DNA from: a virus
Strand: one strand, 5' to 3'
DNA length: 53,015 nt
IMG/VR virus record: IMGVR_UViG_3300040806_000113
Location: 1 to 53,015 of that record
Positions 11,932-53,015 of this stretch are shown piece by piece (the stretch's first letter is position 1; the number at the start of each line of letters is the position of its first letter). The notes under the pieces are model-generated. The model had not been told where the DNA came from and ran no database searches. It was given only the letters and a program-made list of their open reading frames with translations. Made by a program: the position numbers and the translations under genes.

Positions 11932-14058
11932 TTAACCTTCAGTTGAAGGAGGGTTTCCAGTAAAGCCGCTTTCCCCTGCAGTTGGCGCAGTTCCGACTCC
12001 GATTGTGCCGTTACCAGACCCCTGTAAGTCTGTTCCTTCAGGACTTGGAGATACGCCTCCAGCCCCTGCCATATCTGCGGCTGGGCCAGCAGCGGCCCCA
12101 CCAGCTTCGCCTGTTCCTTGCTGTACATTTGCCATCATTCCTTTTAACATCTGTGCGTAGAGTTGTGCTTGGTTGGCATCGTTGACTAGGCTGTCTGGGT
12201 CGATATCTTGGGAGATAGCTAGTTCCCGCATCAGGTTAGGTATCTTGATGAACGGTGCCAGCATCGGGTTCGCAACGGTTTGCAACAGGGATGTCAAGCG
12301 TTGTGTGCGAACCTCTTTTTGCATCACGGCTGCAACACCGCGAGGCTTGATTTCCAAGTCGCCTTGGATATCTTCGGCATCTTCATTGAACTGCATGTTC
12401 CATTGGAAATAGGCTTCGCCTAAGGGCTTCAAGAGCATGTCGTCGATGTTCTTGATGACAGTCTTCATGGAGAGACCAGCAGAACCCATCAACATAGAGA
12501 GACCAGCGGCGGTTCGTCCGGTTCCAGATACGCCTGTTTGACCGTGCATGATTGATGGGATGCCCGTCTCTTCATCAGCAAGCTGACGACTAATCTGGTA
12601 CATCTGCAGGTTTTCCCCCGCCGTGTTCGGAAACTTCAAGCCGTTAATGGCTGTTCCGGTAACACCAGACTGGCGACGGAAGATTTTGCCGGGGAAAATA
12701 TCCATGTTCTGTCCCGGTACGAGACTAGCTTCATCCACGTCAAAAACAAGGTTGCCAGCAAGAGCCAAGTTGTCGATAGCCATGCGAACATGACCGTTCA
12801 TCAACTTCTGAGCATCTTCCATATTTTCCGCTACACCAACGCCCCAAAGCTGATAAGGATTAACTTCGTAAGGGAACACTTGGAACGGAATACGGGCTGG
12901 TGTGAACGGGTTTAGGACACAGCGAATAACCATGTTTCCGCAAACCCAGACATTAACCTGTAGTTCGTCGAACTCTGACATCTCGTCAGCTTCAGGAAGA
13001 CCTGCTTCGTAGGCCATCTTGGAATCCAAGACACCCCAATACTCTAGAACCTCGTAACGGTTACCCTGATAATAGGGTTCTGTTTCATCTTCGCGAATAG
13101 TGTCTTCGTAATACTTGTCCTCGTAATTAGGACCTTTGGCAAGACACTCTTCAACAGCCTCTGAAATAAAGTGAGGACGCTTTATAAGCGCACGAAGCTG
13201 TTGGCGATTCATGCGGTGACGTTGAATAACATATTCGCAGTCTTCGATGCTAGTAGCAGATGGGTCAGGGTGGAAATCCCACACAGACACCATTTCAATC
13301 CGTGGAACGGTCTTTTCTTCTGGGTTGTAAAAGCGTTCGCCGTTTTCGTCGCGTTCCCATTTGTGAACACGCTTGAAGAAATTAAAGGGACCTTTTACGA
13401 TACCCGTACCCAAAAGGGCCGATTCAAACACAGCGTTACGCATAACGTTGACTGCGTTCGTGTCGGTTAGCTGGTCGTGAATAACTTTTTCCATTCGAAG
13501 GGCTGCTTCTTGGGCAGGGCTAATCTGAGGTTCGCCCATCCGTGCCGGACCCGCTGCCAAGGGAATACCCTCGTACTTCTTCTGAAGGCCACCAAGAAAG
13601 TCGCCGCCCGGTTTTGCTTGCAATGCACCCGGAGCCAGTTCGCGACCATCACCTTTAAACCCATAGGGGTCTTGAGGTTGCATCTGGTCCAAAGGGGTTT
13701 CCATGTGAGCAAACTCCGCGATACCTTCTGGTACGGGAGTGGCTTCCACAACAAGAGGAAACTTCTTGTTTGCGAACAGGATGTCGATGATTTGACCAAA
13801 CGCTGCAAGAACCTTTGTCTTGGTAATACGAACAAAGACCTTCGACCGTTCTGAATCACGGTATTGGGTCGTTGAATCGTAGATACCCCTGAAGTTCTTG
13901 TAGGCTTGGAGCCAACGCTGTTCGTGGGCGTATCGCCCGTTCTCAGCATCTTCGAACCGTGACTTTACATACGCAGCCAGCCCCGGCATTTGCTCTTCTG
14001 GGGCGTGAACCGAAACAGTAGTGTCGTCGGCTGGTTGGAGAAAGTTATCTTCTGACAT
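11932..14058 (-). CDS. Portal protein (head-tail connector)
   Basis: A 708-residue protein that would form the dodecameric DNA-passing ring at one head vertex. The N-terminal 'ENGRYAHEQRWLQAYKNFRG' and 'VFVRITKTKVLAAFGQIIDI' segments, the central 'MVSVWDFHPDPSATSIEDCE', and 'PFQVFPYEVNPYQLWGVGVA' with 'GMGRT'-like 'SGTGRTAAGLSMLMGSAGLS' identify the large podoviral portal family. A Gly/Ala-rich C-terminus is dispensable-looking. It lies downstream of TerL (separated only by the recombinase-like gene) and upstream of scaffold and capsid, matching the usual order. Confidence 0.88.
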   Translation of the reverse strand: MSEDNFLQPADDTTVSVHAPEEQMPGLAAYVKSRFEDAENGRYAHEQRWLQAYKNFRGIYDSTTQYRDSERSKVFVRITKTKVLAAFGQIIDILFANKKFPLVVEATPVPEGIAEFAHMETPLDQMQPQDPYGFKGDGRELAPGALQAKPGGDFLGGLQKKYEGIPLAAGPARMGEPQISPAQEAALRMEKVIHDQLTDTNAVNVMRNAVFESALLGTGIVKGPFNFFKRVHKWERDENGERFYNPEEKTVPRIEMVSVWDFHPDPSATSIEDCEYVIQRHRMNRQQLRALIKRPHFISEAVEECLAKGPNYEDKYYEDTIREDETEPYYQGNRYEVLEYWGVLDSKMAYEAGLPEADEMSEFDELQVNVWVCGNMVIRCVLNPFTPARIPFQVFPYEVNPYQLWGVGVAENMEDAQKLMNGHVRMAIDNLALAGNLVFDVDEASLVPGQNMDIFPGKIFRRQSGVTGTAINGLKFPNTAGENLQMYQISRQLADEETGIPSIMHGQTGVSGTGRTAAGLSMLMGSAGLSMKTVIKNIDDMLLKPLGEAYFQWNMQFNEDAEDIQGDLEIKPRGVAAVMQKEVRTQRLTSLLQTVANPMLAPFIKIPNLMRELAISQDIDPDSLVNDANQAQLYAQMLKGMMANVQQGTGEAGGAAAGPAADMAGAGGVSPSPEGTDLQGSGNGTIGVGTAPTAGESGFTGNPPSTEG

Positions 14059-16348: not shown

Positions 16349-18115
16349 TTAATATCCAAAGGTAGCATCATAAGGTTTAAAGGTCTGGTCCTTTATCCCC
16401 TGAAGCGTTTTATGTATAGATTGATAACCAGATGTTCGCGTCATAACCATATATCGCAACGCATCATAGGCATGGTCCTCTGCTCGCGTGTCTACATCTT
16501 CGCTGTTAGTTTTGGAGAGTGGAATGCCTGATAGCTGTGCAATGATATGCTTACAAGTGGAAAAAATCCGCATACGGGGTTCTTTGGAGTACGGGTCGTC
16601 AGCAAGCCGCCTGTGTAGTTCCATTTTTCCTTGAAGACGGTTGCGGTCTGAGGGAGTCCACCTAACCCCGGACCTCATCATAGTTTCTGCGATAGAAGGT
16701 CCGAATCCGGTTTTGTTCCAGCAGGAAGAGTCCAAGACCGTGTAGTGTGGTGTAGGGTCTAACTCTTCACATTCTAATATTTTATCAGCTAATTGTTCTG
16801 CTGTCAAGTGTTTTACGTATAATTCGCGATAAACCCAAATATTGTTATCCCAGTCAATAGCACCCCACAGAACACACGACGGCGACGAGTAGCCGTAGTC
16901 GGCGGCTCGTATGCGGGGCCAGTTCGTGGGAAGGTCAAAATGTTCGACCACATGTCGTGTCCTCGAAAACTCTGGGAAGGCCGCTCCCTCTGCCACATCC
17001 CAATCCCCTTCGAGAAGTCGTCTACGCTCGACTTCTGGGAGTGACCGAAGCATGGCCTCGTACTGACCATCTGCCATCAGGAAGGGGTTATCTGTCAGCC
17101 GTGCTGGGATAAACTTGCGGTAGAACAGAGGCTGACCTGCTTTTGGGTGATTTTCAGGCCACACGAAAGTACGGCCTGTCTCTAGGTCCTTGGCCCCGAA
17201 CGCCTTGTTGGGTTCATGGGCATCAATGTACATTTTCTTAACCCACCAGCCGCCAACACCACCGGGGTTCGCTGTGCAGCGCATGGTCAGGTTTGTCTGT
17301 AACTCAGGGTCTGTAGAACGTAGACGGGAACGAAGATAGTCCCAAACGTAACTCGTTGGGTATTGGGTTATTTCATCTATGCCAATCCAGTTGAACGCCT
17401 GTCCCTGAAAACGGGTAACGTCTTTGTCCCTGTCGAGATAGGTGAACCACATGGTTGCACCAGACGGGAACACCCACGTTGACTTTGACTCACGGAAGAT
17501 GGCTCCGGGAAAAGCCTTGGGGTATAGCTGCTTCGACTTGTCGATGAGTTCGGTTAGCTCGTCTAACGTGCGGCGGAGAAGAAGTCCACGATGATTAGCA
17601 TTGTGACAATAGCGTAGGGGGTCAGCAAGTAGAGCAAACGACTTGCCTCCGCCAGCGGCTCCCCCATAGAGTACATCTTGTTCAGGGGCAGAAAGGAAAT
17701 CTTCTTGAGGCCCCTCGTTAGGTTTGAATATAATAGGCGTGTCATCAATTAGGTCCGTTACGGCTTTGGGTAGTACGTCTAAATCACCAGCGTCTATAAC
17801 GCGGGTCTTGTTGCCGTTCATGGCGTTTTCAATGTTCTTGGCAGCGGTAGTCAGGTCCTTGACCTTTTTGCGCTTGCGAGCAACACGGGTTTCTTCTCGC
17901 TGTTGTTGCTTCTTTGCATTCCGCAACTTCATCTGTACGGAACGCCGCGCACGTTCCCTGTCACTTATATTGTGCGTGGTTTTTGATTCACCGGGTCTTT
18001 TCTTAGGTCTTCCGACCTTGCCTAAGTCTTCTGGGTTCGGGGGGACTAGAACTCTTTTGCGTGGGGCCACTGTATACCTATGGCTTTTCTGAACTGGCTG
18101 ATGCTGAACGCCCAC
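16349..18115 (-). CDS. Terminase large subunit
   Basis: A 588-residue packaging motor: N-terminal ATPase and C-terminal RNase H-like nuclease that cuts concatemers. Visible are an adenine-binding 'EGPQEDFLSAPEQDVLYGGA', the Walker A-like 'GGAAGGGKSFALL' (near residue 155), Walker B 'FNWIGIDEIT', the coupling motif region 'TMRCTANPGGVGGWWVKK', and nuclease acidic residues in 'RIRAADYGYSS', 'HYTVLDSSCW' and 'DHAYDALRYMV'. A basic N-terminal extension of about 120 residues precedes the ATPase. It overlaps the upstream 65-residue gene and lies downstream of the small subunit. Confidence 0.93.
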   Translation of the reverse strand: MGVQHQPVQKSHRYTVAPRKRVLVPPNPEDLGKVGRPKKRPGESKTTHNISDRERARRSVQMKLRNAKKQQQREETRVARKRKKVKDLTTAAKNIENAMNGNKTRVIDAGDLDVLPKAVTDLIDDTPIIFKPNEGPQEDFLSAPEQDVLYGGAAGGGKSFALLADPLRYCHNANHRGLLLRRTLDELTELIDKSKQLYPKAFPGAIFRESKSTWVFPSGATMWFTYLDRDKDVTRFQGQAFNWIGIDEITQYPTSYVWDYLRSRLRSTDPELQTNLTMRCTANPGGVGGWWVKKMYIDAHEPNKAFGAKDLETGRTFVWPENHPKAGQPLFYRKFIPARLTDNPFLMADGQYEAMLRSLPEVERRRLLEGDWDVAEGAAFPEFSRTRHVVEHFDLPTNWPRIRAADYGYSSPSCVLWGAIDWDNNIWVYRELYVKHLTAEQLADKILECEELDPTPHYTVLDSSCWNKTGFGPSIAETMMRSGVRWTPSDRNRLQGKMELHRRLADDPYSKEPRMRIFSTCKHIIAQLSGIPLSKTNSEDVDTRAEDHAYDALRYMVMTRTSGYQSIHKTLQGIKDQTFKPYDATFGY

Positions 18116-18275
18116 GGCTTTCTTTTTTGTTTGCTTTGTCCCACATTTTTAATCCAGCAGCAATATCATCTTTATCATCTCCATATACACGAGAAAGATG
18201 ATTATAAGCTTGTTCTCTACTCATTTTAGTAAAATCAGTAAAGAAGTCTTTTGTGGCCTGATATGCAGATTCCAT
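18078..18275 (-). CDS. 65-residue protein overlapping TerL start
   Basis: The start is ATG 18275-18273 (MESAYQATKDFFTDFTKMSR), four bases after the TAA of the 121-residue gene, with AAGG just upstream. 'SREQAYNHLSRVYGDDKDDI' suggests a short helical bundle. It overlaps the terminase large subunit start by 38 bases in another frame, so translation may be coupled. Function unknown. Confidence 0.55.
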   Translation of the reverse strand: MESAYQATKDFFTDFTKMSREQAYNHLSRVYGDDKDDIAAGLKMWDKANKKESRGRSASASSEKP

Positions 18276-18279
18276 GACC

Positions 18280-18645
18280 TTAATCCTTATTGCCCATTGC
18301 TTTGCGACCACGGCAAGAAGACATCTTCTTCACACCGCCCTTTTTGGTGCCGTATGCGTAGCCGCGAACTTTGCCGCCCTTGGCTAGTGCGCCTTCTTTA
18401 TTTTGACCGCCCATATTTTCTACTTCTTTAGTAGTAGCACTGTTAAAGCGACGAACACGTTCTTTAATAAACTTATTTCTAGCTATACTGCCCATGCTGC
18501 CTAGCTTTGTGCGCTCTGCTTTTTTTTGTTCAGGACTCAAGGTTTTTATAAATGCCTTGTATTGTTCCATTACATCTTCTGACGGAGGCTTCATACCCTT
18601 GCTACTGTTTAATAGCTGGTCTCCAATGTTGTCAAACATTCCCAT
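18280..18645 (-). CDS. Basic small protein of the packaging region (121 aa)
   Basis: Starts MGMFDNIGDQLLNSSKGMKP, a helical N-terminal half (EDVMEQYKAFIKTLSPEQKK) and a Lys/Gly-rich C-terminus with 'AKGGKVRGYAYGTKKGGVKK'. The final motif (GGxxxGYAYGxxxxG) recurs in the 79-residue protein at 37359-37598 (GGKTKGYAYGSMV). Such basic 'RGYAYG' tails are common in small marine phage proteins of unknown function. Confidence 0.6.
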   Translation of the reverse strand: MGMFDNIGDQLLNSSKGMKPPSEDVMEQYKAFIKTLSPEQKKAERTKLGSMGSIARNKFIKERVRRFNSATTKEVENMGGQNKEGALAKGGKVRGYAYGTKKGGVKKMSSCRGRKAMGNKD

Positions 18646-18660
18646 AGTCTCGTTCCTTCT

Positions 18661-18828
18661 CTATATAGTATAGTTGGCTTTCCTGCCGCGAACCATGCCA
18701 CCAAAGGCTTTACCGTATCGTTCACGAACCGTTTTGGTTTGCAGTACCTTGTACCGCTCATATTCTTTATTCGTTAAGTTGCTGACGTTTTCCATCGCAA
18801 TCTTTAATATTTCTTTATCACTCCGCAT
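18661..18828 (-). CDS. 55-residue basic protein after TerS
   Basis: ATG at 18828-18826 lies within the last codons of the small terminase gene. The product is MRSDKEILKIAMENVSNLTN followed by 'KEYERYKVLQTKTVRERYGK' and a basic tail 'FGGMVRGRKANYTI'. Helical and basic. Overlap with TerS implies coupled translation. Function unknown; a packaging accessory role is suggested only by its place. Confidence 0.55.
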   Translation of the reverse strand: MRSDKEILKIAMENVSNLTNKEYERYKVLQTKTVRERYGKAFGGMVRGRKANYTI

Positions 18829-19222
18829 CGATAACCACTTCTTTCTTGGGTGGCAACAGGACAACCCCGTGGATTGCCTGTACGTTGTGGTTCATTGTTT
18901 CTTGTTTGGCTATGCCGACGCGGTTCAGGATACTTTCCGCTGCTTTCATCCGCAGTTCGTCCCCGCGTTCGATATCAGGGGCCGTTACGAGGCTTGCCAA
19001 CTTGTTCGCGGCTGACAAGGAGTGGCCCGCTAACATGACTTTGGTACGCTCTATAATCTCATCAGCCAACCGTTCCTTGAGCCACGTAACTGACTTAGGG
19101 GAATATCCCACGAGTTCGGCAGCAACGGTCATATTGCCGTTGTTTTCGAACAGAGCGTCTAGGAACTGCTCCTGCTTTTCAGTTAGGGCAGCTTTTTTAT
19201 TCGTTTGGGGTAGTAAATTCAT
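18818..19222 (-). CDS. Terminase small subunit
   Basis: A 134-residue protein: 'LTEKQEQFLDALFENNGNMT' followed by 'VAAELVGYSPKSVTWLKERL' is the N-terminal helix-turn-helix of small terminases that recognise the packaging start site. Helical oligomerisation segments follow (SLSAANKLASLVTAPDIERG, MKAAESILNRVGIAKQ). The position, five genes before the large subunit and near the start of the late operon, supports it. It would bind phage DNA, perhaps in the repeat-rich intergenic region just upstream, and hand it to TerL. Confidence 0.82.
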   Translation of the reverse strand: MNLLPQTNKKAALTEKQEQFLDALFENNGNMTVAAELVGYSPKSVTWLKERLADEIIERTKVMLAGHSLSAANKLASLVTAPDIERGDELRMKAAESILNRVGIAKQETMNHNVQAIHGVVLLPPKKEVVIDAE

Positions 19223-22026: not shown

Positions 22027-22047
22027 TTTAGCGTGGTTGATTTGTCA
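22027..22047 (+). repeat. 21-bp repeat, isolated copy downstream of the Cys-rich gene
   Basis: TTTAGCGTGG, TTG, ATTTGTCA: an exact match to the consensus of the array at 22839-23050. Its last three bases are the stop codon of the gene at 22045-22662, and the rest is non-coding, so coding constraint does not explain it. Confidence 0.75.
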
Positions 22048-22662
22048 TTTGACCGCTTCAACAATTTGGGTAACACCATTGCCCTTTGTATAGCAAAGCA
22101 GGCAATCGCGGCATTTTTGCCCAGTGCAGTTCTGTTCAATCCCTTTAAAATGCTTTTCTACATTGTTAAAAGTTCGGTCGAAAAACTCAGGCACGTTATC
22201 CATGACGCGATTGATTGTTGGGTTGCTGTAAATCAATATCATATTTTCAGGCTTTCTATTATGCCGGTAGTATTTCTGGACAATATCTTTTCGTTTAGTC
22301 CAAAGCGCAAAAGTACAATGCGGATTATATTCGGCAATGCGGTTTAAGTTTTCTAGATGCGTTTCATTTATTAATTCCCCATGGGCGGAAAAACGGAAAA
22401 AGGCATCTAGAATATTTGGCAACATATGGGCGGGGATTATTCCGCCTGATAAAATGTCGCTGTTATGCTGCCAAGCTGGCGCACAGTTTTTCCGCAACCC
22501 TTGCAACATTTCCATTGAATAGCATTTAGTGCAGATTAAATCTGTTTTGCCGCTGCTATACATCTTCTTGCAAAAATCATTTGTTAGCGTGTTAGTGCTG
22601 ATTGCGTGAAAGCCTGCAAGCTTGCCGGTCATCTTGGATATTTTTAAAACTGAATGGTTCAT
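22045..22662 (-). CDS. Cysteine-rich putative metal-cluster protein (205 aa)
   Basis: Starts MNHSVLKISKMTGKLAGFHA, then 'TNTLTNDFC' and C31, C44, C47 (ICTKCYS); the C-terminus has C179, C184, C187, C190 (CTGQKCRDCLLCY). Seven cysteines in two clusters look like an Fe-S or zinc site, and the layout (loop with 'ist..l.N.fC', then 'C..CY', then a core with 'LWTKR...' and a late cysteine cluster) recalls phage proteins of the gp88 kind and distant radical-SAM-like folds, though the canonical CxxxCxxC is absent. Enzymatic function unknown. Lies in the accessory block. Confidence 0.55.
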   Translation of the reverse strand: MNHSVLKISKMTGKLAGFHAISTNTLTNDFCKKMYSSGKTDLICTKCYSMEMLQGLRKNCAPAWQHNSDILSGGIIPAHMLPNILDAFFRFSAHGELINETHLENLNRIAEYNPHCTFALWTKRKDIVQKYYRHNRKPENMILIYSNPTINRVMDNVPEFFDRTFNNVEKHFKGIEQNCTGQKCRDCLLCYTKGNGVTQIVEAVK

Positions 22663-22702: not shown

Positions 22703-22909
22703 TTAAGGATAGTAACCGGCATGGTCAAGCCCTTTTATTTGCTGCCCCTGTTTTTTTAGATAGCATTTCGGACAGGACAGCCCCGCCAGTTCGCGAACCA
22801 TCGCCGGTTCCCCGCAATCATCGCAACGATACGCAGGGTTTAGCGTGGTTGGTTTGTCACGTTTTAGCGTGGGCGATTTGTCAAAAGTTTGGCGTGTAGT
22901 GTTTGTCAT
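22703..22909 (-). CDS. Small zinc-ribbon protein (68 aa)
   Basis: MTNTTRQTFDKSPTLKRDKP opens a basic N-terminal part containing two DKxxTL units, then a Cys4 ribbon: 'YRCDDCGEPAMVRELAGLSC' and 'PKCY'. The zinc ribbon suggests nucleic-acid or protein binding. The N-terminal coding DNA contains three copies of the 21-bp repeat, and the ATG itself lies in one copy. It overlaps the upstream 85-residue gene by 29 bases. Confidence 0.6.
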   Translation of the reverse strand: MTNTTRQTFDKSPTLKRDKPTTLNPAYRCDDCGEPAMVRELAGLSCPKCYLKKQGQQIKGLDHAGYYP

Positions 22910-23050
22910 CGTTCAAGGCTCGCTTTAATGTGGCTAATTTGTCACGTTCTGCGTTTGTCACCGGTTCGCGGTTCCACTCTTTGTCACGGATTTGTCTTCT
23001 TAGCGTGAAGTATTTGTCAGCCGTGTTTGTCAGGCGTGGGTCATTTGCCG
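22839..23050 (+). repeat. Array of a 21-bp direct repeat (iteron-like)
   Basis: Consensus TTTAGCGTGG, three variable bases, ATTTGTCA. Clear copies start at 22839, 22863, 22888, 22924 and 22999; degenerate ones at 22940 and 23030. TTTGTCA alone occurs at 22853, 22877, 22902, 22938, 22954, 22980, 23013 and 23026. All point the same way. The array runs through two overlapping genes in different frames and matches non-coding copies at 22027 and 26668, which argues for a DNA-level role such as iterons, operators or a partition-like site. Confidence 0.75.
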
Positions 23051-25920: not shown

Positions 25921-25955
25921 AAAAAAAAACGAGGCCAGAAATAAATCTGACCTCG
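25921..25955 (-). terminator. Strong rho-independent terminator
   Basis: In the minus-strand transcript CGAGGTCAGA (25955-25946), a six-base loop, and TCTGGCCTCG (25939-25930) form a 10-bp stem with one G-T pair, followed by nine T (25929-25921). It lies 57 bases after the stop of the 86-residue gene and ends the small early transcript. Confidence 0.92.
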
Positions 25956-26011
25956 CTTCCCAACCAACCAAGGAAACAAAGGGTAACCACTCCCCCTGTT
26001 CAACCTTACTA

Positions 26012-26656: not shown

Positions 26657-26685
26657 TTGACACGATTTTTATTGTGGGGTATTTG
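26657..26685 (+). promoter_or_regulatory. Sigma70 promoter of the replication operon
   Basis: TTGACA (26657-26662), 17-base spacer, TATTTG (26680-26685; three of six). It lies 20 bases before the ATG of the primase, with AGGAGAA between. The -10 box is inside a copy of the 21-bp repeat, so a protein binding that repeat would block or modulate the promoter. Confidence 0.65.
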
Positions 26686-28701: not shown

Positions 28702-29288
28702 TGAATGTCTTGACCTTCGACGTGGAAACAACCCACAAACCCAAAGCCAATGGTTCGACAACTGCCTTGCCATACTTCGGAAACTCTTTAGTTTCAAATG
28801 GTTACAAGTGGTTGGGTGAGCCACACGTTCACTATCACTGTTATTACCACAGTGTTCGCGAACCACATGAGTTCGCTTTCGAATTGTTCCAAGCTGCTCT
28901 TGACAAAGCCGACGTGGTTGTGGGACAAAACATAAAGTTTGATTTATCTTGGATTCGCGATTGCGGGTTCGTTTATGAGGGACATGTATATGATACAATG
29001 GTTGCAGAATATATTCTTGCCCGCTCCCAGAGGTGGCCTCTTTCACTTGCTGCTCTTGCAGAAAAGTATAGTGATGTGCAAAAAGAGAAAGACCTCGTTG
29101 CGCCGTATTTTAAGGAAGGCAAGACCTTCTACGACATACCTTGGGAAATAATAGAAACGTATGGAAAGGCTGATGTCATTTCCACAGAGCAAGTAGCCCT
29201 TGCACAACTCGAAGCCTTTGGCACTACATTTGAGGAACTATTCAATGAACAACCAAACACTCTTGCCCACTTTGCGTCTGTCGCTTGA
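28701..29288 (+). CDS. 3'-5' proofreading exonuclease (split from PolA)
   Basis: A 195-residue DEDDy exonuclease: ExoI 'LTFDVETTH' (D7, E9), ExoII 'VVVGQNIKFDLSWI', ExoIII 'YGKADVISTEQV'. In most family A phage polymerases this is the N-terminal domain; here it is a separate protein whose gene overlaps the polymerase gene by 44 bases. The two products presumably form one polymerase complex. Separation of exonuclease and polymerase is a known trait of some marine phage polymerases. Confidence 0.85.
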   Translation: MNVLTFDVETTHKPKANGSTTALPYFGNSLVSNGYKWLGEPHVHYHCYYHSVREPHEFAFELFQAALDKADVVVGQNIKFDLSWIRDCGFVYEGHVYDTMVAEYILARSQRWPLSLAALAEKYSDVQKEKDLVAPYFKEGKTFYDIPWEIIETYGKADVISTEQVALAQLEAFGTTFEELFNEQPNTLAHFASVA

Positions 29289-30792
29289 GATGACAGATGT
29301 GCTGTCCCGTATCGAACGGAACGGCATCAAGATTAATAGACAAACATTGTCTGACATTCGCCGCGAATACGAGGATGAACTGTTTACCCTCGAACGGCGG
29401 CTACAAGAACTGGCTGCGGAAGCTATGGGTGACACCCCCATCAACCTTGACAGTCCAGATGACCGTTCCAAGCTGTTCTATTCCTGTAAGGTAAAGGACA
29501 AGTCCCGCTGGGCTGGTCTGTTTAACTTGGGTCACGAAATTCGCGGTGCAGGACGCAAACCAAAACGCCGCACACGGATGAGCCGTGCCGACTTCAAACG
29601 CAACGTTGTGAACGAGACGGATGTACTGTTCAAGACCCGTGGTAGTCAATGTGCCGATTGCGGGGGCGTGGGGCGTTATACAGCCCGCAAGAAGGACGGA
29701 ACGCTAGGTAAGGCTATCAGAATCTGTAAGCCCTGTCAGGGGGCTGGTGTGCGCTATACATCGACAGGTCAAGTTGCGGGGTTCAAGTTAGTTCCTCGTG
29801 ACCCCTACGATGTGGCTGCTGCCGGTTTCAAAACAGATAAGGAAACTTTGGAAAGTATGTTCACATCCCTGCGGGGTGAGGCTCGTGAGTTCGCAGAAGC
29901 TTACATCCGGTACAGTGCTGTTCGAACTTACCTTCGTTCGTTTGTCGAGGGTATGGAAAACAACATGGATGGTGAGGGGTTTATCCACACGGAGTTCATG
30001 CAATGTGTTACGGCAACAGGTCGTCTATCGTCTCGCAACCCGAACTTCCAGAACATGCCACGAGGTACTACCTTTATTATCAGGCGGGCTGTTGAAAGCC
30101 GGTTCGAGGGTGGGTCAATCCTCGAAGGTGACTACGCCCAGCTAGAGTTTAGAGTGGCTGGTTTCCTTGCGGATGATGAGGGCATCAAGACTGATGTGGA
30201 TGCCGGAACAGATGTGCATAGCTATACTGCCAGTGTCATAGGGTGTTCGCGGCAAGATGCCAAGGCTCACACCTTCAAGCCACTCTATGGTGGTGTGTCG
30301 GGTACAGATGACCAGAAACGATATTACAATGCGTTCAAGGAAAAGTATAACAATGTTACCAAGTGGCATGAGTTCCTTCAGAAACATGCCGTAACAAAGA
30401 AGTACATCCAGCTTCCTTCGGGCAGGCAATACGCTTTTCCTCATGCAAGGTGGACTGATTGGGGTGCAGCAACAGACCGGACTGCAATCTGCAACTATCC
30501 TGTTCAGGGGTTTGCAACTGCTGACCTTCTGCCTATGTCCTTGATTATGCTGGACAAACGAGTTCGCGAACTGAACTTGCGTTCGGTTATCTGCAACACG
30601 GTTCACGATTCCATCGTCATGGATGTGTATCCCAGCGAGGAAAAAAAATGTATTGACGTGATGGCTGAATGTATGTTAGCTATCCCGTTGGAATCAAAGA
30701 ATAGGTATGGGATTACCTATGATATGCCAGTTGGTATCGAACTAAAAATGGGTAAAAACTGGCTTGACTTGGAAGAAGTACTTACTGTATAA
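29245..30792 (+). CDS. Family A DNA polymerase with DnaJ-like zinc insertion
   Basis: A 515-residue polymerase; start at ATG 29245, inside the exonuclease gene. A zinc finger at residues 136-172 (C136, C139, C161, C164; 'CADCGGVGRY' and 'CKPCQGAGVRY') is inserted before the palm, as reported for HMO-2011-type phages. Motif A is 'EGDYAQLEFRVAG' (D296). The O-helix 'RQDAKAHTFKPLYGG' has K340, F344 at the position equal to Pol I 762, and Y348. Motif C reads 'VHDSIVMDV', with Ser where most enzymes have Glu. Copies the phage genome with the split exonuclease, primase and helicase. Confidence 0.93.
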   Translation: MNNQTLLPTLRLSLEMTDVLSRIERNGIKINRQTLSDIRREYEDELFTLERRLQELAAEAMGDTPINLDSPDDRSKLFYSCKVKDKSRWAGLFNLGHEIRGAGRKPKRRTRMSRADFKRNVVNETDVLFKTRGSQCADCGGVGRYTARKKDGTLGKAIRICKPCQGAGVRYTSTGQVAGFKLVPRDPYDVAAAGFKTDKETLESMFTSLRGEAREFAEAYIRYSAVRTYLRSFVEGMENNMDGEGFIHTEFMQCVTATGRLSSRNPNFQNMPRGTTFIIRRAVESRFEGGSILEGDYAQLEFRVAGFLADDEGIKTDVDAGTDVHSYTASVIGCSRQDAKAHTFKPLYGGVSGTDDQKRYYNAFKEKYNNVTKWHEFLQKHAVTKKYIQLPSGRQYAFPHARWTDWGAATDRTAICNYPVQGFATADLLPMSLIMLDKRVRELNLRSVICNTVHDSIVMDVYPSEEKKCIDVMAECMLAIPLESKNRYGITYDMPVGIELKMGKNWLDLEEVLTV

Positions 30793-50294: not shown

Positions 50295-52463
50295 TTACCT
50301 ACGCCCGTAAGTGCCGTATTCGAGCGTTAGAGCATCTAAAGAGTGTGGTGGGTTTGTTGAATTGGTTCGGAACTGTATCGAAACAACATACCCAGAGCCT
50401 ACTGTTTGGTTTTCAAAGAGGCGTTGTATCGTTCCGCCGTATGAGCCTGTTCCAAAAATGGAAGTTCCGTAAAAGGCCGGGGCAGTAGCCCCCGACGTGT
50501 TGTTAAATGAAAATGGGTTTGGTTGAATAATCCCAGCTTCGTCAAAATCAAATAATAGGTTTACTTCTGATGAGTAACTTCCCTGCGGGTCTGTGTACAA
50601 GAACATTTTGTAGATTGTCTTGCGAATGCGGGGGTCGTTGATTGGGATGTAAGGAGTGGCAAATGTCGAGTAGATGTCGCTCTCATCCAAGCTGTTCCCC
50701 GATTCCATCTGATAAACGTATCCGGTTGTGTTCGCGAACACGATGGTTTCAATTCCTTCGTAGAGATTGCTACTGGCAACGTACGCCTTGAATCCCCGCA
50801 ACTCTGCCCAGTTGATTCCCTGCTCCACCTGCGAACCGATGATACCCTGTGATGCGTCTGCCGAAAAGTTCGTGTTGTACCCAAACAGCCTGTACTGGCT
50901 CTTCGGTCTGATTACCACGCTACTAAACGAGGTGTTACGGTTCACAAAGTTGGTTACGTCATCTTGTATCGGCTTCGATACAACGGCAAGGTTGAAGTCC
51001 CCTACCCTGTCGGTTGCAGACAAACTTCGTATTCCGTCTGGTCCCAAGTAAAGTACGTCCCCGCCAATCTCTTGAATTGTGTCGGTTTTGGTACAGCCGG
51101 TATCCAGAGTAATAGGCTGAAGCTGGAAATCTCCAATCGTATTGCCTACCAGTCGCTTGATAGACCTCTCACTAAATATTATAAGCTGTTCTCTGAAAAT
51201 AATCAAGCCCGTAATTGCACTTCCGACATTTATTGTTCCTGCGCCACTTGCTGCAGAGAAGTCGTCGAAGGTATAAGGGGCTGTAAACAGCAGGTTCGAA
51301 CCCTTTGCAAAGAAAAGCTGGTTCTTGAAGTTTGCTACGTGGCCTGCGCCGTTACCGTCCGTAGGAATACTGTCGAGGGCGGTAAAGAACGTTCCGTCGT
51401 ACACAAATGGTACGTTGGCCCCATCGACCCCTACCATGTAGTCGGTTCCGCTGTAGTTGAAGTTCACGAACCGGTGTTTGTCCATGCCGGTGCGGTCTAC
51501 AGAAAGGAACGTCAAGGCTGCGTTATTTGCAGGGCTGCTGTTCAGGGCAGGGTCGATAGCAAAGGTTGCAGAGCCACTGGTAACCGTTGGGGTAGCTGTC
51601 AAGGTGTAGATTAGGTCTACGCCTGCAATCGTAAAGGTGTCGCCGACCTGTGGTGTTCCTGTGATGCCATCTACGACCAAGCTAGTACCGGTTTGCGAAC
51701 CGCCGTCTACCAAGACAGTACCATAGTTGGGTGTGTTTACCTTTGTCCACCCCGAACCCGTTGATTTAAACAGGTCCGAACCCCGTGCTGCAATCACTGC
51801 GCTTTCGAAGGTGTGTACCCCTTGAATGATTCCAGAGCCAGATACAAAGGTTAGGGCATCTTGGTCTGACGGGTTGACAACCATCGTTTGGTCTAGGGTC
51901 AAGGTAGCCCGTTTGTTCACAGAACTAAAAGAGACACCGCCAGATGCAATCGTGTAGCGGAACGACAGAACGGCATCATCTGCAGGTGCTACTGTGATTG
52001 CCGGAGTGATGGTCAGGGTAGATGCCGTACCTACGAGAGCGGTTGCGGCACTCACTGTGTAGACTGTGGTATCCCCAGCAATAGTAAATGTGTCGTTTGC
52101 AGATGGAGCAACATCCAAGCCATCTACGTCGAGGCTCGTTCCTGTCTGTGCCGCGCCATCTACAGCCCCGCCAGCAAGAGAAAACACGTCGGTTGCGGCA
52201 GGTTCGGTGTAGATGTTGCCGACAATCAGGGTTGTGCCGCTCTGTCCGTTGCCGTGAACCAGTGGCGCACCGTACGGGGGAACGATGTCTGGGTCGTACT
52301 TATCGTAGCCTTGAATCGAACGATAACCACCCTCGATAGATGGTTCGTAATTACGAAGGATACGAGCCGACCCCGGAGCATTGATACCATGCTGCAACGG
52401 AGACATGTTCGTAATGAGGCCACCTTTAAATTCGATGGCGTATGTTTGCCAACGGTCAGGCAT
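50295..52463 (-). CDS. Tail tubular protein B with repeated modules (722 aa)
   Basis: The nozzle-type tail protein that follows tail tubular A. The N-terminus MPDRWQTYAIEFKGGLITNM with 'GINAPGSARILRNYEPSIEG' and the C-terminal part ('KHRFVNFNYSGTDYMVGVDG', 'FRNQLFFA'-like 'FKNQLFFAKGSNLLF', 'RRPK'-like 'RPKSQYRLFGYNT', 'SQVEQGINWAELRGFKAYVA') match this family. Between them, residues about 100-168 and 250-320 are two copies of a module 'VDGxxQTGTSLxVDG.....P...DTFTIAG', with a shorter third copy at 66-99. The modules make this protein longer than a minimal family member and may decorate the tail. Confidence 0.82.
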   Translation of the reverse strand: MPDRWQTYAIEFKGGLITNMSPLQHGINAPGSARILRNYEPSIEGGYRSIQGYDKYDPDIVPPYGAPLVHGNGQSGTTLIVGNIYTEPAATDVFSLAGGAVDGAAQTGTSLDVDGLDVAPSANDTFTIAGDTTVYTVSAATALVGTASTLTITPAITVAPADDAVLSFRYTIASGGVSFSSVNKRATLTLDQTMVVNPSDQDALTFVSGSGIIQGVHTFESAVIAARGSDLFKSTGSGWTKVNTPNYGTVLVDGGSQTGTSLVVDGITGTPQVGDTFTIAGVDLIYTLTATPTVTSGSATFAIDPALNSSPANNAALTFLSVDRTGMDKHRFVNFNYSGTDYMVGVDGANVPFVYDGTFFTALDSIPTDGNGAGHVANFKNQLFFAKGSNLLFTAPYTFDDFSAASGAGTINVGSAITGLIIFREQLIIFSERSIKRLVGNTIGDFQLQPITLDTGCTKTDTIQEIGGDVLYLGPDGIRSLSATDRVGDFNLAVVSKPIQDDVTNFVNRNTSFSSVVIRPKSQYRLFGYNTNFSADASQGIIGSQVEQGINWAELRGFKAYVASSNLYEGIETIVFANTTGYVYQMESGNSLDESDIYSTFATPYIPINDPRIRKTIYKMFLYTDPQGSYSSEVNLLFDFDEAGIIQPNPFSFNNTSGATAPAFYGTSIFGTGSYGGTIQRLFENQTVGSGYVVSIQFRTNSTNPPHSLDALTLEYGTYGRR

Positions 52464-53015
52464 GGGCTTACGATGCCCTCATGTAAATGTTTTCGTTGAC
52501 CGTTACTGTTCTCATCTGTTTGATACCCTCGTCGAACTTGCGTTGTGAAACCGATGCCATCTCTAGGTTGTCGCGGAACATGTAGGCATAGTACATAGCA
52601 CCATCGATGATTACGTGACGAAACCGCTCTGGAATTGTTGGGACATCCGTATTGAGGATGAGGTCAACAGGGTCCATGAAGTATTCGAAGTCTACCTGAT
52701 AGGCTTTGTCTGGCATGGGAACCACGCCCCACTCACCGTTTTGGGTACGGAACACACGCTCTGGAACCGCGCCTAGAGCCGTGTTGGTTTCGTCCTCTTG
52801 GTCGATGAACCGGTCCACGTACTCGTCATAGCTAATCTGAGTCAGGTGTTCGGCCCTGCCTAAACCTAGAGTTGTATCCCTGCGAACCCGATATGTATCA
52901 AAATCAACGTACTTTGCTTGAGACGGAATAGGGTATCTGGTAACCCCTGCAGTTAAAGTTTGCTGATATGTGTTGTGATTGAAGGGCCAGCCAAAGTGTG
53001 CCTGATTGATATGGC
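52274..53015. repeat. Right copy of terminal overlap
   Basis: Second copy of 1-742 (14 mismatches, about 98.1 percent identity, no gaps). The genome unit is 52,273 bp when one copy is removed. Confidence 0.9.
52468..53015 (-). CDS. Tail tubular protein A, C-terminal fragment (second copy)
   Basis: The same gene as 195-875, here without its first 44 codons because the window ends. The encoded 182 residues are identical to the complete copy; all 12 substitutions lie at third codon positions. No internal start should be assigned. Confidence 0.9.
   Translation of the reverse strand, partial: HINQAHFGWPFNHNTYQQTLTAGVTRYPIPSQAKYVDFDTYRVRRDTTLGLGRAEHLTQISYDEYVDRFIDQEDETNTALGAVPERVFRTQNGEWGVVPMPDKAYQVDFEYFMDPVDLILNTDVPTIPERFRHVIIDGAMYYAYMFRDNLEMASVSQRKFDEGIKQMRTVTVNENIYMRAS

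Follow-up and report, generated by a model that had tools for sequence, protein, structure and literature searches.

The direct repeats of Rep-type plasmid iterons and of the lambda ori are about 20 bp long, and origin repeats can lie inside genes. The stoperators of cluster A mycobacteriophages (L5/TipsytheTRex repressor) are asymmetric, keep one orientation relative to transcription and lie in part within promoters; they are 13–14 bp long, number 20–30 per genome, occupy mostly short intergenic gaps and have a known monomeric repressor (PMC9283540; PMC6550527). The HMO-2011-type phages are a dominant and widely distributed marine group (PMC9038755). Neither gene-control sites nor a replication origin of this group were described in the papers searched, and no paper on the repeat element reported here was found among them.

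The sites of this element resembled stoperators in their asymmetry, uniform orientation, presence in a promoter and divergence of specificity among related phages. However, they were 21 bp long, numbered 3–8 in a single region and were largely intragenic. With Rep-plasmid iterons and the lambda ori they shared direct repeats of ~20 bp at 22–25 bp spacing, but no initiator gene was found among the window proteins scanned, and a promoter site and, in some clades, dispersed sites were present.

The repeat array and the phage that carries it

The window, that is, the whole stretch of DNA analysed, is a virus record of 53,015 nt. Because its 742-base ends (1–742 and 52274–53015) matched, with 14 mismatches over 742 bases, the map is essentially closed (circular) at ~52.3 kb. 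The mismatches suggest that it was assembled from slightly different strains. The window encoded a TOPRIM primase, DnaB, and a family A polymerase in split form that has a DnaJ-like zinc region (29200–30792; DNA_pol_A, with a weak DnaJ_CXXCXGXG match, E 0.015). All three are common to HMO-2011-type phages (PMC9038755). The closest cultured match of the polymerase was Pelagibacter phage HTVC033P (48%). On account of this match and of the gene set, including a PolA with a partial DnaJ CXXCXGXG region, the window is classified from its predicted genes as an HMO-2011-type podovirus. From a divergent promoter region at ~26.65 kb, the small early genes, DUF932, TerS, TerL and the head genes followed leftward, and the primase, helicase and polymerase rightward.

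The original prediction described a unidirectional array of a 21-bp repeat across two overlapping genes. The array is real: seven copies with up to three mismatches to the consensus TTTAGCGTGGNNNATTTGTCA were found in the window, all on the + strand (Table 1), far above the chance mean of 0.07, and none of 100 shuffles reached seven. A recount of TTTGTCA within 22839–23050 reproduced exactly the eight one-strand occurrences reported before (starts at 22853, 22877, 22902, 22938, 22954, 22980, 23013, and 23026; spacings of 24, 25, 36, 16, 26, 33, and 13), with none on the − strand, and both overlapping ORFs were present as described. Over the whole window TTTGTCA alone was not enriched (16 vs. 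12 expected); the enrichment is local and lies in the long motif. A position weight matrix (PWM) scan of the window added one weak copy at 23030. Site C was intergenic and overlay the spacer and −10 of a likely primase promoter of the form TTGACA-17-TATTTG; it was retained in the closest relatives only and was absent from most relatives.

Table 1. Repeat sites and neighboring features in the window.
Feature	Start	End	Strand	Remark
Tyrosine-recombinase-like protein, hypervariable	14282	16345	−	Between TerL and portal; weak candidate reader
Winged-helix protein	20158	20682	−	Candidate reader, argued against
DUF932/TIGR03299-type protein	20794	21816	−	Downstream of site A
Hairpin	21926	21953	−	Loop GCGAG..GGGGC; between site A and DUF932 promoter
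Site A, perfect copy	22027	22047	+	Upstream of DUF932; overlaps gene X stop codon
Gene X, GP88 family	22045	22662	−	Only gene between array and site A
Small zinc-ribbon-like protein	22703	22909	−	N-terminus encoded by array
Array copy 1, 1 mismatch	22839	22859	+	Motif scan
Array copy 2, perfect	22863	22883	+	Motif scan
Small ORF	22881	23138	−	3′ half is array
Array copy 3, 3 mismatches	22888	22908	+	Motif scan
Array copy 4, 2 mismatches	22924	22944	+	Motif scan
Half-site TTTGTCA	22954	22960	+	Word search
Half-site TTTGTCA	22980	22986	+	Word search
Array copy 5, 2 mismatches	22999	23019	+	Motif scan
Half-site TTTGTCA	23026	23032	+	Overlaps weak copy starting at 23030 (PWM)
Ribbon-helix-helix-like (RHH) protein	26247	26459	−	Candidate reader, excluded by L337/L338
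Site C, degenerate copy	26668	26688	+	Spacer and −10 of likely primase promoter

Conservation in relatives and constraint on the DNA

An exact motif scan of viral contigs yielded 45 stretches and the helicase relatives 80 loci; the contigs compared were all metagenomic, and some were short and possibly chimeric. Among 80 non-redundant sites, two blocks, TTTAGCGTGG and ATTTGTCA, held the information, and the flanks were near background. With a matrix that had been trained on the sites themselves, 29 non-redundant relatives that cover the stretch from DUF932 to primase gave 136 sites scoring ≥14, every one of them on the same strand and inside that stretch; the 356 kb outside it contained no such site. 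A plain mismatch pattern applied to 17 whole relative records found sites in 17 of 17, all on one strand and confined to one region, and the reversed-pattern control gave no matches in these records.

Most relatives had site A ~200 bp upstream of DUF932, often doubled at 24 bp, and its distance to the downstream promoter-like sequence varied by several bp. The array, a cluster of two to six sites mostly 22–25 bp from their neighbors, lay 0.81–1.13 kb beyond site A, and some clades possessed further sites scattered along the early operon. Unlike the window, HMO-2011 and HTVC033P (whole records) and the CRP phages (early regions) carried no array of this motif; neither HTVC033P nor HMO-2011 contained a match, and the other cultured HMO-2011-type phages gave weak single matches only. 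In GTDB genomes the motif of the window (class I) gave 44 scattered single matches, none in arrays. Since this was about chance level, the motif is no ordinary host site, and a host chromosomal factor with this motif was rejected; one with looser sites may exist. A physical genome end near the array was also rejected, as contig ends scatter.

Most full copies in the window read DKxxTL, and five of them shared one codon frame, as a repeat driven by the protein would. However, the copy at 22888 also read TNxxRQ in the overlapping ORF, and DKxxTP; the half-sites used other frames, and the site A copy overlapped the TGA stop of gene X, with the rest non-coding. The sites of relatives were spread over non-coding DNA and each of the three codon frames, with readings as DKxxTL, as TNxxRQ and, at a start codon, as MTN. 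In the ACG block, A and C were invariant across 123 non-redundant sites and G was present in 107; ACG made up 12% of the Thr codons in the large genes of the window. Because sites occupied three frames and non-coding DNA, the constraint acts on the DNA, with the DKxxTL repeat as its by-product. The original prediction had already held, from copies in different frames and in non-coding DNA, that a protein repeat explains the array only in part. Both refutation tests named with the prediction were run and neither went against it: relatives kept the DNA motif beyond the amino acids, also at the non-coding site. With the rare codons fixed in addition, the probability of chance or a DKxxTL-driven repeat is negligible, and this explanation is refuted.

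Switching of motif class and candidate readers

Relatives without the window motif had the same gene order, and the two places were taken by different motifs, again unidirectional. The classes were assigned by motif inspection: class I′ was TGACAAACNNNNNGACGCTA(A/T), and class II was (A/T)AATATTGTCAGC and variants, on the gene strand and in the orientation opposite to class I. A clean four-copy tandem of class II with a 15-bp period was observed in L254 (G029; contig positions 13381–13436), whereas arrays elsewhere were looser.

In near-identical pairs the array and site A switched class together; the flanking genes were 96–100% identical and gene X in between was kept. Both places differed between L337 (class I) and L338 (class II; only 12 kb of sequence) within conserved flanks, with identities of 100% for RHH and helicase, 98% for primase, 97% for polymerase, and 96% for p26012, gene X and DUF932. 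They switched likewise between L265 (I) and both L236 and L246 (II), and between L258 (I′) and L259 (II). Since two separated sites switched together, these comparisons imply one sequence-specific, trans-acting reader that would serve both. Between G021 (I) and G018/G020 (II), early and replication genes were mostly 90–100% identical (helicase and polymerase 99–100%, primase 79–87%).

The reader did not appear to be either of the proteins proposed as binders in the original prediction. The RHH protein was rejected, being 100% identical in L337 and L338 despite their different classes. The winged-helix protein was rejected because L265 and L236 shared an identical DNA-binding domain and its recognition helices differed among class I phages. 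TerS, DUF932, primase, helicase and polymerase were rejected as well, being common to both sides of class switches. Iterons, a repressor array or a partition-like site had been suggested and are possible. The DNA-level role in this suggestion is supported by the motif kept in relatives, and its named proteins, which did not track class, are not. No ParA/ParM ATPase of the ParABS/ParR partition type was found among the window proteins scanned, a subset of the ORFs. The DUF932 alleles were mosaic (43% identity between L010 and L012, with primase at 91–96%), and a fold search with the DUF932 and RHH proteins gave no usable match.

Sites of the pac type, recognised by TerS, would equally be polar, clustered and unique in genome location. 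However, TerS was 99% identical across classes (L258/L259 and L236/L265), so that specificity did not follow it, and the array lay >3 kb from TerS; packaging sites are highly improbable.

The tyrosine-recombinase-like protein was 687 aa in the window and had weak integrase profile matches (1e-7). It was present in every relative with a TerL–portal region (531–811 aa, with an Ala/Gly-rich hydrophobic C-terminus), and many of its forms were <30% identical while TerL and portal were >74% identical. In a nearest-neighbor class test on 34 loci it matched the class in 30, a result reached in 2 of 500 shuffles, compared with 14 of 500 for TerL and no better than shuffles for DUF932, TerS and the winged-helix protein; the shuffles ignore relatedness, and therefore these counts are not probabilities. 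The protein was also replaced between G021 and G018/G020. Blind class predictions, readable only at loci whose contig reached site A, held for L225, L232, L233, and L197 and failed for L243. The array might therefore consist of recognition sites at which this protein recombines the genome or marks it for packaging. However, the protein of L243 (class II) was 76–79% identical to those of the class I-like L265 and L232, and the same class I motif was found alongside proteins only ~21–30% alike; because of this, the protein is considered a lead and not the reader. It also switched between the same-class phages L231 and L243, so the association may reflect background hypervariability, and no inverted core site was seen. 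Recognition by this protein is quite unlikely.

A broader reading is a two-locus DNA mark whose specificity is swapped wholesale among near-identical phages, with a trans reader outside the early region, possibly the recombinase-like protein. That would amount to a new phage identity system for early genes, replication or packaging, which we consider unlikely. Should the classes prove to mark out compatibility groups, these lytic-looking marine phages would have a counterpart to immunity or incompatibility groups.

Possible regulatory array or replication iterons

We favored an operator/stoperator-like array, with replication iterons second. The repeats may be a polar array of candidate binding sites for one trans factor that regulates the early left-hand genes, a reading held tentatively and put somewhat short of even. 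We infer both the protein binding and the transcriptional effect, from the observed sites, their polarity and places, the DNA constraint and the class switching. One sequence-specific factor would bind the cluster at 22839–23050, the satellite site A at 22027 and, in the closest relatives, site C at 26668. The bound sites, around gene X and the control regions of DUF932 and primase, would hold back transcription across the early/late boundary or set its timing. The reasons for favoring this array were the promoter covered by site C, the position of site A ahead of the conserved hairpin and the DUF932 promoter, and the dispersed sites of some clades. Also in its favor, the sites were confined to the DUF932–primase region and, within the leftward early region, uniformly oriented to transcription (136:0), as stoperators are. 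Against it, the candidate readers from RHH to polymerase were shared across switches, leaving none of them as a cognate repressor that tracks class (a reader encoded elsewhere may exist), the spacing from site A to the promoter varied, and most relatives lacked site C, whose orientation differs relative to its own promoter. The sites were not spread genome-wide in intergenic gaps. The reversed orientation of class II relative to the genes is not predicted by a transcription-polarity mechanism without a changed reader.

The 22–25 bp spacings of the cluster fit iterons equally well, and the 21-bp units fall within the ~17–22 bp of tandem direct iteron repeats. On that reading the cluster would be the origin and site A, an outlying same-strand site, a second iteron locus, and an initiator would load the phage DnaB helicase. 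The site of one relative reads TGACAAATTGCCCACGCTAAA, which we take to resemble the F-plasmid iteron. The cumulative GC-skew minimum, at ~26.5 kb, lay 3.6 kb off, but it coincided with the divergent gene boundary and not with the array. No match to a Rep initiator family was found among the window proteins scanned (part of the ORFs), and the primase, helicase and polymerase were nearly identical across the L337/L338 switch (97–100%) and, except for the primase, between G021 and G018/G020. Dispersed extra sites and the promoter site C are also atypical of iterons. Iterons are somewhat unlikely, but their fit to the spacing makes them a rival to be taken seriously.

The polarity could also reflect sense-strand RNA, with an RNA-level element in the early leftward transcripts, and a structured hairpin adjoins site A. 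However, site C is upstream of the likely leftward start and therefore absent from the leftward transcript, and the orientation of class II is reversed; such an element is very unlikely. The hairpin had a covarying stem in 17 relatives/loci, with stems checked individually, and nothing in Rfam matched it above threshold. A T-run followed the stem in only some relatives, and therefore it is not simply a terminator.

Class pairs that differ in little else in the early region make it possible to find the cognate DNA-binding factor by comparison, and the element provides a precise, conserved DNA target for tests in a dominant marine phage group.

The gene X slot was occupied in relatives by a GP88-type protein of two kinds or by a DUF7178 protein. 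Homology to the window broke from the start codon of gene X (22658) to site A (22047–22051), and the ORF was cleanly exchanged for other, unrelated genes from the start codon to site A and the stop. This exchange would need no more than ordinary homologous recombination within the conserved flanks. Gene X of the window shared 62% identity with gp02 of Roseobacter phage CRP-5, which belongs to a different family. A strong intrinsic terminator at 25924–25961 (−), with a 16-bp stem and a T-run and with a TTGACA box directly after it, formed the divide between the RHH operon and the following early operon. The small genes at 18078–18864 (−), in the TerS–TerL interval, formed another cassette that differed among close relatives.
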